Under the pieces are notes generated by a model, which saw only the letters and a list, made by a program, of their open reading frames with translations, was not told the origin of the DNA and did not search any database. From positions 62,001-126,000 of the forward strand of contig CACYWQ010000003.1 of NCBI GenBank assembly GCA_902778165.1: a stretch of DNA of 64,000 nucleotides, in the 5' to 3' direction. Shown one piece after another: positions 50,443-63,974 of this stretch (the first letter of the stretch is position 1; each line of letters opens with the position of its first letter). Source of the stretch: an uncultured Lachnospiraceae bacterium. Lineage in GTDB: Bacteria; Bacillota; Clostridia; Lachnospirales; Lachnospiraceae. The position numbers and the translations under genes were made by a program.

Positions 50443-52806
50443 CTATTCCTTACGTATGGAAGTACGTCTCTTAGCCTTATCTTCATACATAGCCTCATCG
50501 GCCTGTTTGATTATACTCTCAAGATCCACATCTTCGTTGCAGACAAATCCCGAAGAGCCCATAGAGCACTCGATATAATACGGCTTGCCTGAAGTCTTAT
50601 TGATCCGCTCAAGGGTAGTCTTAACATTGCTTATAAGTTTCAACGCTTCATTATCCTTGCACGCCAGAATCGCCACAAATTCATCGCCGCCTATCCTTGC
50701 AAGGCAACCCTTCTTACCGAATATTTCCTGAGTGACATTGGCCAATGTCTTAATCGCATAGTCTCCGTCCGCATGACCGAACTCATCGTTGATCTGTTTA
50801 AGATGATCAAGATCACAGAAGAATAATCTAGCTTCTCTTCCATCATTGGCAGCCACAAGTTCAAGGGCTTTCTCCATGAATCCTCTTCTGTTATATACAC
50901 CGGTCATGGGATCGTTACTTGATACTGATGCCAGGATCTTATTCCTGTCGCTAAGCTGTCTCATGGCTTTCGTAAGCTCATTCTTAGCTGCATCTTCCTT
51001 ATTCGTAAGGCTCATTATTGATAATCCGTTACTAAGCTGCATGCTCACTCCGTGCATTCCGCTTAACTGACTCGGCGTAATCTCCGCAATTAACAGCCCG
51101 TACTGCTCAGTCTCTGAGAATAACAGGAATGTCATATACAGATGCCCCTTATCCTTGGAATAGAAACGAGTGAATCCGGACTTCTTATTTACCTTCTCTT
51201 CTTGCTTTCTTCCGTATACCTTAATCTCATCCCCACGTGTATATGCCACTAGTCTCATGGATTCGGGGCATGAAGTATCCTTGCCTTTCTCGTGGATGAT
51301 AGGCTTGGTGTTAAGCAGAAGATATGAGCTTACGGCACCCTGTGCTATAACCTGCTGCATGGCTGTCCGTAAGAAAGCCTCATTGTCTCTGACGCGCTCT
51401 TTAAGTCTCTGAATTACAAGAGCCGCATCCCATGTAGACTGTTGCAATCTGTCTCTTTGCTCAAGGCCTGTCTGAATAATCATTGCCTCTATATGGTCAT
51501 GAGTTCGTTGCATAAGTTTAATTATGCAACGCCTCTTATCATTATCCACTGCCACGCCAAGTGACCTGTCAATTATCCTGTGGAAATACTTGGTTAAGCG
51601 ATTAAGATTGATATAGTCTCTTGCTCTGAACTCAAGCTTGGCTCTTAACAGTTCCCTGTAAGTGCTCATCAGTTCGCCGCGTTCGCCGTTGATGTCTCTG
51701 GTGTCGATTATCTGACGCATTATATAGATAAACTGCTTAAAGAACTCCTCACAGTCAACCCGCGCCTTCACATCCTTGGAATATCCCATTACATCATCGG
51801 CAATGGCAGATGCGCACATCGCTATATCCGGTCTGTCTTCATCAAATAGAGTATCAATAAGCTTATTGACCGTCTCCAGTGAATCCACCGCATTATAATC
51901 ACAGCCGCAGGAACCTCGTATCACAAGGGGTACATCTATCCTGTGAAGCTTCTTATCCTCTTCCGTGATACCTTTGGTAACAAGTTCAATGGCCATACGT
52001 CCCATCGCATAACCATCCTGTCTGCAGGTAGTAAGAGGCGGATTAAGTGTTGATGCGAATTCAACGTCGTCAAATCCCGTGATGGAAATATCTCTGCCTA
52101 TTGCAAGACCTCTGGCCTTACATACCCTGTATGCACAAATGGTCATCTCATCATTGGCACAGGCTATGGCATCCGTATCCGGATACTTATCAAGCAGTTC
52201 TTCCACCAGATAATCAACAGAATCCGAGTAATCACCGTAGGCGAGCATATCACTCTCTACTGTAAGCCCGTGGCTTAACATTGCATCGTAATAGCCTCTT
52301 AATCTCTCGGAAGCATCCGTATTCATCTTCGGACCGCCCAAGTATACGATACGCTTTCTGTTATGAACTTCTATAAGGTGGGATACAACATTGAACAATC
52401 CCTTATAGTTATCAGCAATAAGATAGCAATAATGCTCATTCTCATTGAATTCCTGAAGGACAACCATGGGAATGCCTTTGAATCTGTCGAAGAAATGCGC
52501 TTTCTCATCGGCACTTAAATACATCATAAGAGTACCGTATGTGATGATCAGAGCGTCAAAGCCCGCTATCTGCGCATAATCATAGAGTGCATTATACTGA
52601 TAATTGTATTCGGAGAAATTCAGATCATCCGACTCCCCGTCATTATTCTCCCAATAATTGTAGATAGAGCCCTGTGCACCCGGAATAACCGTCAATGTAA
52701 CATTGTGTTCTTCCGCGCCTACACCCAGGCCCTTAAGCACCTCGTGCGGATGCTTAGTGAAGACGTTGCCCATCAGCACGCCTACCTGAAGTACTCTGTC
52801 TTCCAT
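50443..52806 (-). CDS. LacI-type sensor domain fused to a GGDEF diguanylate cyclase
   Basis: 787 residues with no membrane helix. Residues about 5-280 form a LacI/PurR-like periplasmic-binding domain (VGVLMGNVFTKHPHEVLKGL; IVYLGGPKMNTDASERLRGY; SITGFDDVEF), but the usual DNA-binding helix-turn-helix is missing. A helical linker follows, then a GGDEF domain (MTGVYNRRGFMEKALE; GGDEF at 706-710). The catalytic motif is intact and no RxxD inhibitory site is seen five residues before it, so it should make c-di-GMP without product inhibition at that site. The likely signal is a cytosolic sugar or nucleobase. The SD is weak (GGGG about 11 bases upstream). Confidence 0.9.
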   Translation of the reverse strand: MEDRVLQVGVLMGNVFTKHPHEVLKGLGVGAEEHNVTLTVIPGAQGSIYNYWENNDGESDDLNFSEYNYQYNALYDYAQIAGFDALIITYGTLMMYLSADEKAHFFDRFKGIPMVVLQEFNENEHYCYLIADNYKGLFNVVSHLIEVHNRKRIVYLGGPKMNTDASERLRGYYDAMLSHGLTVESDMLAYGDYSDSVDYLVEELLDKYPDTDAIACANDEMTICAYRVCKARGLAIGRDISITGFDDVEFASTLNPPLTTCRQDGYAMGRMAIELVTKGITEEDKKLHRIDVPLVIRGSCGCDYNAVDSLETVNKLIDTLFDEDRPDIAMCASAIADDVMGYSKDVKARVDCEEFFKQFIYIMRQIIDTRDINGERGELMSTYRELLRAKLEFRARDYINLNRLTKYFHRIIDRSLGVAVDNDKRRCIIKLMQRTHDHIEAMIIQTGLEQRDRLQQSTWDAALVIQRLKERVRDNEAFLRTAMQQVIAQGAVSSYLLLNTKPIIHEKGKDTSCPESMRLVAYTRGDEIKVYGRKQEEKVNKKSGFTRFYSKDKGHLYMTFLLFSETEQYGLLIAEITPSQLSGMHGVSMQLSNGLSIMSLTNKEDAAKNELTKAMRQLSDRNKILASVSSNDPMTGVYNRRGFMEKALELVAANDGREARLFFCDLDHLKQINDEFGHADGDYAIKTLANVTQEIFGKKGCLARIGGDEFVAILACKDNEALKLISNVKTTLERINKTSGKPYYIECSMGSSGFVCNEDVDLESIIKQADEAMYEDKAKRRTSIRKE

Positions 52807-61677: not shown

Positions 61678-62433
61678 TTATTCCTCCTCTTTTGCTGCTA
61701 CTTCCTCGATATCCGATGCCTCGGCATCTGCCTGCTGTACATATACAGACTCACCCTGGTTAGCCTCGATAACGGCATCTGCCATCTTGCCTACGATAAG
61801 CTTAACGGCTCTGATTGCATCATCGTTGCCGGGTATGATATAGTCGAGATCCTCGGGATCACAGTTGGTATCGCCGATACCTATAAGTGTTACGCCAAGA
61901 GTCTTGGCCTCCTTAACGCAAATTGCTTCCTTCTTAGGGTCAACTACGAAGATTGCATCGGGAATTCTTGTCATATCCTTGATACCGCCGATGTTCTTCT
62001 CAAGCTTCTCCCATTCCTTCTTAATCTTAATAACTTCCTTCTTGGGAAGTACTTCAAATGTACCGTCCTCGCTCATTCTCTCGATAGCCTTAAGTCTGTC
62101 GATACGGCTCTGGATGGTCTTGAAGTTGGTAAGCATACCACCAAGCCATCTCTCATTAACGTAGTACATACCGCAACGCTCTGCCTCAGTCTTAACTGCG
62201 TCCTGAGCCTGCTTCTTGGTTCCTACAAACAGAATTGTTCCACCTGCATTGGCAATATCAAATACTGCCTTGTAAGCATCATCAACCAGACCTACTGTCT
62301 GCTGTAAGTCGATGATATGTATTCCGTTACGCTCAGTGAAAATGTATGGAGCCATCTTAGGGTTCCATCTTCTTGTCTGGTGACCGAAGTGCACACCTGC
62401 CTCAAGCAGCTGCTTCATAGAAATAACGCTCAT
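61678..62433 (-). CDS. rpsB: 30S ribosomal protein S2
   Basis: 251 residues, with [20 protein letters not shown] and [19 protein letters not shown] as S2 hallmarks, and an acidic C-terminus ([13 protein letters not shown]). The SD GGAGG precedes the ATG. It heads the rpsB-tsf operon, with a promoter and a structured leader of about 134 bases. Confidence 0.98.
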
Positions 62434-62647: not shown

Positions 62648-62677
62648 ATAAATAAAGGACCGGAATTGCTCCGGTCC
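62648..62677 (-). terminator. Terminator of the CheY-like gene
   Basis: GGACCGGA/TCCGGTCC with a five-base loop, followed on the minus strand by TTTATTTAT, 24 bases after the CheY-like stop. Confidence 0.8.
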
Positions 62678-62700
62678 CTATATCACGTGTCTTTTTATTT

Positions 62701-63057
62701 CTACAGATGCTTACCGATCACTTCAAGCATCTCATCCTTCTCAAACGGCTTACGGATGAAATCAAGTGCTCCGTCCTTAAGTGCCTGTAAAACCTTATTC
62801 TTCTGTCCGGCTGCCGAGATCATTATAACCTTAAGATCAGGATAACTCTCCTTAATTCGATTAAGTGTCTCAAGGCCGTCCATAACAGGCATCGTAATAT
62901 CAAGCGTCACAAGATCGGGAGTTACTGTCTCCAATATCTTAAGCGCCTCCTCGCCGTTAGCAGCTTCACCTGCTATCTCATGACCTGCTTCCTTCAATGT
63001 ATTAGTTAGTACTCTTCTTATTATTCTTGAATCATCTACAATCAGTATATTTGCCAT
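62701..63057 (-). CDS. CheY-like single-domain response regulator
   Basis: 118 residues: only a receiver domain. Acidic pair IVDDSRIIRR, phospho-acceptor Asp in LVTLDITMPVMDG, Ser in IMISAAGQ and Lys in FIRKPFEKDE are all intact. It is closest in style to CheY proteins of chemotaxis. The SD AAGGAG precedes the ATG. The upstream gene encodes a CheX-like protein, so the pair looks like a regulator and its phosphatase. Confidence 0.93.
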   Translation of the reverse strand: MANILIVDDSRIIRRVLTNTLKEAGHEIAGEAANGEEALKILETVTPDLVTLDITMPVMDGLETLNRIKESYPDLKVIMISAAGQKNKVLQALKDGALDFIRKPFEKDEMLEVIGKHL

Positions 63058-63086
63058 AAATAATCTCCTTCTCCCTTACTTCCCGA

Positions 63087-63974
63087 CTACAACTCATAAT
63101 CCTTATCGTATACCATCAACAATTCAATGTCATTGCCGCATACGACCATGGGAACAACCAGTATTGAATCACTCTTCATGCTACCGGGTTGTTCTTTGGA
63201 TATTGGAGCTTCCATATCTATGTCAATATCTCTGTTGCTTACATCCGTAGCCATAAGACCGTTAACGCAGTTGATAAGTTCGCACATAGCATCAAGCGAA
63301 TCTTCTTTCTCTATTATATTGTCATTACCTGCAAAGGATACGGCAGCCTTATACATCGCTACGTCCATATCGCCCGAAAGTGCTGTGGTGATTCTGTAAT
63401 CACCCTTAAGCTCCTGAAGCGATAATGCCGGGTACGGAACATTCTTCATAACCGAAGGCTTCTTGATATATACGTGATTATCAACAAGTCTTACGATGGT
63501 ACGTATCATAACGCCACACAAATCCTGCACCATTTCAGGCTGATCATATAAGAAAATAGGGATTACACGATCTATCTCGCAGCTTTTTAATTCCTCCATA
63601 TTCATAAGAGTCAAGCTGTTGTCTTTCTGATAACTTGCCAAAGCACGGTCAAATTCTTCCGCCGACATAATATCAAGATCTATCACTGCCTGCATGAATG
63701 CAAGGAATGCATTACCCTGTAATACAAGAAGTCTGTTAACCTGTTCCGTGGTTAAGAAGCCTTCAGATATGGCTATATCACCAAATCTCTTATCGTAAAT
63801 AGCCTGAAGTTCATTGACTTCCTCAACCTGCTCAATGGTCATGAGTTTCTCGGATATGGCTATAACACCAAGCCTTACATATCTCTTCTCCTGACCGGAA
63901 TAGATCCTCATAAGATCATTCTCGTTTAATAATCCCTTATTAACCAGATAATCCGCAAATATTCTGTCAAACAT
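63087..63974 (-). CDS. MshEN-like repeat protein fused to a CheX-like phosphatase domain
   Basis: 295 residues. Residues 34-57 and 63-86 are two 24-residue repeats starting RLG and RFG and ending in Gln, separated by exactly five residues. This is the geometry of the c-di-GMP-binding MshEN domain (RLGxxL...G...L..L..Q twice). The first copy lacks the Gly and second Leu; the second copy is closer. A helical stretch leads to a CheX-like domain (about 150-295) with the ExxN phosphatase signature Glu232-Leu-Ile-Asn235 and a following NGLMAT. CheX dephosphorylates CheY-P. The SD GGAGGG lies upstream of the ATG. It is 29 bases before the CheY-like gene. c-di-GMP binding is inferred from pattern only. 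Confidence 0.75.
   Translation of the reverse strand: MFDRIFADYLVNKGLLNENDLMRIYSGQEKRYVRLGVIAISEKLMTIEQVEEVNELQAIYDKRFGDIAISEGFLTTEQVNRLLVLQGNAFLAFMQAVIDLDIMSAEEFDRALASYQKDNSLTLMNMEELKSCEIDRVIPIFLYDQPEMVQDLCGVMIRTIVRLVDNHVYIKKPSVMKNVPYPALSLQELKGDYRITTALSGDMDVAMYKAAVSFAGNDNIIEKEDSLDAMCELINCVNGLMATDVSNRDIDIDMEAPISKEQPGSMKSDSILVVPMVVCGNDIELLMVYDKDYEL

Follow-up and report, generated by a model that had tools for sequence, protein, structure and literature searches.

Can the lifetime of phosphorylated CheY (CheY-P) be set directly by c-di-GMP? This question is raised by a locus at the right-hand end of the window, that is, the whole 64,000-nucleotide stretch analyzed here (positions 62,001 to 126,000 of contig CACYWQ010000003.1, from an uncultured Lachnospiraceae bacterium). 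An earlier note had proposed that a protein encoded there fuses an MshEN-like c-di-GMP receptor motif to a CheX-like phosphatase, beside its CheY. Both open reading frames (ORFs) were recovered as that note had described them, and the features of the locus are given below with the evidence for each.

63087..63974, minus strand: 295-residue protein, MshEN-like repeats fused to CheX (ORF call, profiles, predicted structure)
63891..63962, minus strand: repeat A, residues 5-28, degenerate in the window (29-residue period, helices)
63804..63875, minus strand: repeat B, residues 34-57, motif I with R34 L35 G36, N54 and Q57 (alignment to MshE 9-32; conservation in 81 sequences)
63717..63788, minus strand: repeat C, residues 63-86, motif II with R63 F64 G65, L83 and Q86 (alignment to MshE 38-61; relaxed motif passed)
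63630..63701, minus strand: repeat D, residues 92-115, degenerate (29-residue period, helices)
63105..63536, minus strand: CheX domain, about residues 147-290 (PF13690 at 186-261; CheX structures by Foldseek)
63270..63281, minus strand: ExxN motif, Glu232 and Asn235 (81/81 near sequences; aligned with T. maritima CheX)
62701..63057, minus strand: receiver-only CheY, 118 residues, with Asp8, Asp9, Asp53 and Lys103 present (ORF call, profile, alignment)
62655..62679, minus strand: terminator-like hairpin 3' of CheY (hairpin scan)

The profile search suggested in the earlier note placed both halves of the 295-residue protein over the cut-offs, with 49.7 bits for NF053729, an MshE-related c-di-GMP motif (cut-off 38, E = 2.4e-13), and 32.3 for the CheX profile PF13690 (cut-off 27). 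The receiver-only CheY described next door matched PF00072 with 115.7 bits. A single-sequence search of the PDB reached MshE at E = 0.045 only, whereas a profile of 67 sequences retrieved MshE (8.8e-5), T. maritima CheX (2e-4) and PilF (0.001). In the alignment from this profile, E232 and N235 fall on the Glu and Asn of T. maritima CheX, in agreement with the ExxN motif that had been assigned to them.

The AlphaFold monomer model, built with the same 67 sequences, has a mean pLDDT of 94.5 and a pTM of 0.87. Foldseek matched it to the CheX structures 3h4y, 3hm4, 1squ, 1xko and 3hzh_B, the last being the CheX of the Borrelia CheX-CheY complex, with a probability of 1.00 and a best E of 1.2e-8. 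The tandem helical repeats expected in the earlier note are present in the model, and they matched MshE with bound c-di-GMP (5htl) with a probability of 1.00 and 0.7 Å over 53 columns at 34% identity; the weak E of 0.58 is due to the shortness of the match. A chance motif was considered and rejected on the NF053729 score, the structure match and the comparison of the 29-residue period with shuffles. The observation of MshEN-type repeats with CheX and a partner CheY is thereby confirmed, as profiles, fold, conservation and gene linkage all speak for it. The interpretation that the earlier note placed upon it is partly supported, with c-di-GMP binding and control of CheY-P lifetime standing as predictions.

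The array is larger than had been thought. The 24-residue repeats at residues 34-57 and 63-86 and the five-residue spacer between them hold, but the count of two does not, since four repeats follow one another on a 29-residue period (5-28, 34-57, 63-86 and 92-115). Self-similarity of the family profile (residues 1-118) is higher at offset 29 than at any offset in the 2000 column shuffles made for comparison. In the model, each repeat forms two helices, which gives eight in all, at the expected places. The 53 residues of the middle pair B-C (34-86) scored 34.2 with NF053729 on their own, under the cut-off of 38, which indicates that the flanking repeats are needed for a score above it; repeat A alone gave 12.8 bits and repeat D alone gave no match. 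Identity to MshE 9-61 is 18/53 for residues 34-86 and 14/53 for each of the pairs A-B and C-D. Because the 34% identity found by Foldseek corresponds to 18/53, the middle pair was taken as the part that matches 5htl.

In the window, only this middle pair retains the c-di-GMP contacts. Position 1 is R or K34 in 81/81 near sequences in repeat B and R or K63 in 79/81 in repeat C, while the other MshE-equivalent contacts, namely L35, the Gly at position 3 (G36, G65) and the Gln at position 24 (Q57, Q86) of both repeats, are found in 81/81. R or K34, G36, Q57, G65 and Q86 are also kept in all 25 further sequences tabulated. Repeat A of the window carries Ile5 at position 1 and Ala7 at position 3; in its relatives, this repeat has Leu at position 1 in 50/81, Gly at position 3 in 61/81 and Gln at position 24 in 71/81. 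Position 24 of repeat D is Tyr or Phe in 81/81. In several distant relatives, A-B or C-D is the best-scoring pair, and the PilF GSPII motif, in the part of that report covered here, allows Lys and Leu at position 1 (PMC11731258). The occupied pair may therefore differ between lineages. Lys stands at motif position 1 in 58/81 near sequences.

The MshEN layout claimed in the earlier note holds for the spacing and the fold, and fails for the consensus. Wang 2016 published a strict and a relaxed form of the motif (PMC5013675, as given in the part of the paper covered). Neither repeat B nor repeat C of the window passes the strict form; repeat C passes the relaxed form and repeat B fails it because of Lys43 in place of Gly and Asn54 in place of Leu. 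The same is seen among the best 80 of 511 relatives, where the relaxed form is passed by motif I in 0/80 and by motif II in 75/80. Since motif I lies off the published consensus, the array is labeled "MshEN-like" and not a confirmed receptor. Asn54 occupies the place of MshE Leu29, under guanine 1. In the other half-site of MshE, the corresponding residue is Leu58, and L58A costs about ten-fold in affinity, compared with 36-fold for L10A, according to the sections of Wang 2016 covered (PMC5013675). These losses suggest that Asn54 need not abolish c-di-GMP binding, and this residue may equally be an adaptation. In the same source, c-di-GMP is reported to change the ATPase activity of MshE by less than 10%, so a catalytic switch does not necessarily follow from binding.

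In the CheX domain, Glu232 and Asn235 are invariant among the 81 near sequences. The catalytic Glu is replaced by Asp in 3/25 further sequences (L042, L184 and L185), and the CheX Pfam score falls under the cut-off in several relatives. In an alignment of 77 sequences of the partner CheY, at least 95% retain the motifs DDSR, DITMP (with D53) and KP. The window CheY shares 45% identity with the canonical CheY of its own genome, which makes it a second CheY.

The search of GTDB for relatives found 511, of which the best 80 were kept; most of these come from records with Lachnospiraceae or Butyrivibrio in the title. In 76 of these 80, a separate CheY gene begins no more than 300 bases downstream. 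Of the other four, L066 has a fused receiver, and the contig of L058 ends after the start of CheY. For L078 and L105, the search downstream gave no CheY; neither carries a fusion, and no contig end interrupts them immediately. For 26 other loci, mostly more distant and including one (L033) that repeats the genome of L056, a CheY on the same strand within 500 bases, upstream or downstream, or a fused one was observed in 24; no CheY within 500 bases or fused was found in L182 and L043. Natural MshEN-CheX-receiver fusions occur in L019 and L021, with the receiver over the Pfam cut-off, and in L066. The conserved adjacency and the natural fusions are good evidence for the prediction that the CheX domain acts on the adjacent CheY.

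The surroundings of the pair were examined in the window and in its relatives. On the minus strand, the MshEN-CheX gene is followed after 29 bases by CheY, then by the hairpin and by rpsB and tsf; here and below, neighboring genes (rpsB, tsf, che, fli, flh and others) are named from visual inspection of their translations, except where a profile is cited. One terminator-like hairpin was found against a mean of 0.9 in shuffles, so the number of such sites is not above chance, and the yield of the promoter scan was at chance level only. Past the window edge, the same contig holds a YceG-like gene (24.1 bits, under the cut-off of 32.4) and a DUF6115 gene, and it ends 1.6 kb beyond the window. Elsewhere in this genome, CheA, flagellin, FapA and PilZ/YcgR were matched by profiles, and cheW, cheC, cheD, cheB, sigD, flhF, flhA, fliM, fliY and the canonical cheY were recognized by eye. 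The genes of the relative G017 run, as read by eye, cheB, cheA, cheW, cheC, cheD, sigD, FapA-like, DUF6115, YceG-like, MshEN-CheX, CheY, rpsB and tsf, and the contigs of the window's genome presumably join in the same way.

Wherever the YceG-like gene and rpsB are both visible in the genus of the window and its near kin (L048-L062, L081 and the window), they flank the pair. The pair is co-oriented with these two genes in 8/17 loci (L048-L051, L053, L056, L057 and the window) and inverted in 9/17 (L052, L054, L055, L058, L059, L060, L061, L062 and L081). The protein tree requires three to four changes of orientation, two of which are forced by well-supported branches, and a search of three loci (L030, L052 and L060) for inverted repeats on either side of the pair, as a possible cause of the inversion, found none. 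This variable orientation indicates that what is conserved is the pair itself rather than a link to the fla/che operon. A common transcript, as proposed in the earlier note, can plausibly be assumed for two genes separated by 29 bases, but it does not extend to the fla/che genes upstream as a conserved linkage. Enrichment of c-di-GMP enzymes near the pair gave no clear sign, with GGDEF or EAL matches in 15 of 1558 ORFs and as immediate neighbors of the pair three times in 99 loci; the profiles used for this count were home-made from three GGDEF and two EAL seeds, and two of the seed proteins came from the loci searched.

Among 393 Clostridia genomes, 152 match the family profile at E ≤ 0.001, and 25 are full-length carriers (E < 1e-50). 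The weaker matches, among those listed, are repeats-only or CheX-only, many of them in ORFs as long as those of PilB-type ATPases. The phylum-wide sample of 398 genomes gave 18 matches at E ≤ 1e-12, some of them outside class Clostridia; in two (G475 and G690), the part that holds repeats B and C is absent. The gene is present in 17 of the 20 genomes of the window's genus as sampled. CheA was found in all 25 class-sample carriers, a count that covers carriers only, and GGDEF proteins in 25/25 class carriers versus 273/368 other genomes (Fisher 0.0012, kinship ignored). Within a set of 61 relatives, CheA occurs in 25/25 carriers versus 24/36 others (Fisher 0.0008, kinship ignored), where the PilB-type matches G039 and G052 were left out of the carriers and G035, a match cut by a contig edge, was counted.

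These observations, namely homology, predicted fold, conserved contact and catalytic residues, pairing and fusion with CheY and co-occurrence with CheA and GGDEF proteins, support a c-di-GMP-tuned phosphatase for CheY-P. From them we infer binding, phosphatase activity, their coupling and an action of the partner CheY on the motor. Phosphatase activity toward CheY-P is predicted with high confidence and binding of c-di-GMP by the repeat array is likely, while the coupled whole is probable at a more moderate level. In the proposed mechanism, c-di-GMP would bind between repeats B and C of the four-repeat array, and the bound array would shift against the CheX domain, by analogy with PilF, in which a subdomain reportedly changes its orientation when GSPII-B binds c-di-GMP (PMC11731258, in the part covered). 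Such a shift may alter the access of CheX to CheY-P or its turnover, and thus the lifetime of CheY-P. The main substrate would be the adjacent CheY, phosphorylated via the CheA of the cell, and the output in the window's genus is predicted to be, most likely, the flagellar motor. If this is true, c-di-GMP acts on chemotaxis at the removal of CheY-P, on the time scale of swimming reversals, by a route other than transcription, motor speed or receptor methylation. The small two-protein system would make a direct link between two signaling networks testable in Lachnospiraceae and other Clostridia.

The unusual motif I allows the array to be read in other ways. Repeats that no longer bind c-di-GMP could form a docking or dimerization arm, with CheX as a constitutive phosphatase for the adjacent CheY. 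The departure of motif I from the relaxed pattern at two positions, the degeneracy of repeat D, plus repeat A in the window, and the homologue XpsE, reported as a non-binder with L29R among its listed changes in the part of Wang 2016 covered (PMC5013675), are consistent with such an arm; we nevertheless consider it unlikely, because a relic would hardly be expected to keep R/K34, G36, Q57, G65 and Q86 in 81/81 and 25/25 sequences, and GGDEF proteins are present in 25/25 class carriers. Alternatively, half-site I, with Val/Ala/Ser50, Asn or His54 and Phe or Ile64, is rebuilt while half-site II is near-canonical, so that the array could sense another cyclic dinucleotide, or one guanine with another base. 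Position 54 is indeed Asn in 81/81 near sequences and, in the 25 further ones (of which one, L033, is from the window's genus), 12 Asn, 11 His, 1 Leu and 1 Asp, and cGAMP is a reported, weaker ligand of MshE (PMC5013675, same sections). However, the base edge is read in MshE by backbone amides after a Gly, according to that source, and this Gly is unchanged here, while all class carriers have GGDEF proteins, which makes a different ligand very unlikely.

The output of the pair was weighed in the same manner. If the partner CheY were not a motor protein, the pair would run pili, surface behavior or a like output and its fla/che neighborhood would be incidental, a reading that can be compatible with c-di-GMP control of the phosphatase. 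The flagellin profile had no match in three class carriers of a single genus, g150 (G185, G375 and G444; loci L180, L189 and L190), in which the pair is kept with CheA and GGDEF proteins, and this suggests a non-flagellar output there. Moreover, in Butyrivibrio L068 and L085 the pair lies among seemingly non-motility genes (by eye, two loci), and its orientation relative to fla/che genes varies in near kin. On the other hand, flagellin was matched in 22/25 class carriers versus 129/368 others (Fisher 1.8e-7, kinship ignored), and the genes that adjoin the window pair end the fla/che operon in G017. We therefore regard a non-motor output as somewhat unlikely.

Inputs of c-di-GMP to motility or chemotaxis are known from the YcgR/PilZ flagellar brake and from MapZ-CheR; to our knowledge, neither acts through a CheY-P phosphatase. 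The window protein shares with CheX (T. maritima 1XKO/1SQU; B. burgdorferi 3HZH) the fold, the single ExxN motif and a CheY beside the gene, and differs by about 130 extra N-terminal residues that carry the repeats. T. maritima CheX is a homodimer. A related CheX protein without N-terminal repeats (L028:1456-2040, G027) occurs in the same genome as the fusion L021. With the MshEN of V. cholerae MshE (5HTL; NF053729), the window protein has in common 24-residue repeats five residues apart, the four-helix fold and the Arg, Gly and Gln contact positions, whereas MshE has two repeats and an ATPase in place of four repeats, CheX, and Lys43 and Asn54 in motif I. T. thermophilus PilF GSPII resembles it in having several consecutive MshEN-type units, which are, in contrast with the single run of four 29-residue repeats found here, separate domains, GSPII-B with a C-terminal subdomain (PMC11731258, in the part covered).

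The earlier note knew MshEN mostly from other partners, but its combination with CheX is already in print: a single clause of Wang 2016 lists CheX as a partner of MshEN and, in the part of the paper covered, comes without protein, gene context or function (PMC5013675). Beyond this clause, no study of an MshEN-CheX protein was found among the matches listed by our literature search. The architecture is thus known by name, and the module, the four-repeat sensor and its function are not described in the literature covered. New are the pairing and fusion with CheY, the locus in either orientation between fla/che genes and rpsB in near kin, the spread to other classes of the phylum and a form with a kinase in genus g121.

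In this genus, a gene for a CheA-like kinase lies 3' of MshEN-CheX and CheY (L173:6815-8749, L183:10052-11992 and L174:10955-12157). The kinase has CBS-like and Hpt-like regions, both under the Pfam cut-offs, and HATPase_c over the cut-off; its ATPase region matched CheA_Halo with 160 and 167 bits, under the whole-protein cut-off of 950. It is 644-646 residues long in L173 and L183, and the gene of L174 is shorter, is without an ATPase match and is followed by a transposase gene (by eye). The trio looks like a kinase, a receiver and a phosphatase in one operon. Tentatively, and with considerable doubt, a distinct class of cyclic-dinucleotide sensor may be proposed, in which a four-repeat MshEN-like array with one rebuilt half-site (Asn/His for Leu) sets the lifetime of a dedicated CheY-P. 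Such a sensor would be a portable cassette that serves flagella in most lineages and, where these have been lost, a different output; in g121, together with the CBS-Hpt-CheA-like kinase, it would make a complete c-di-GMP-gated phosphorylation circuit.

Elsewhere in the window, the ORF at 50443-52806 on the minus strand joins a LacI-type sugar-binding domain to GGDEF, both over their cut-offs, and its product is possibly a ligand-sensing diguanylate cyclase.
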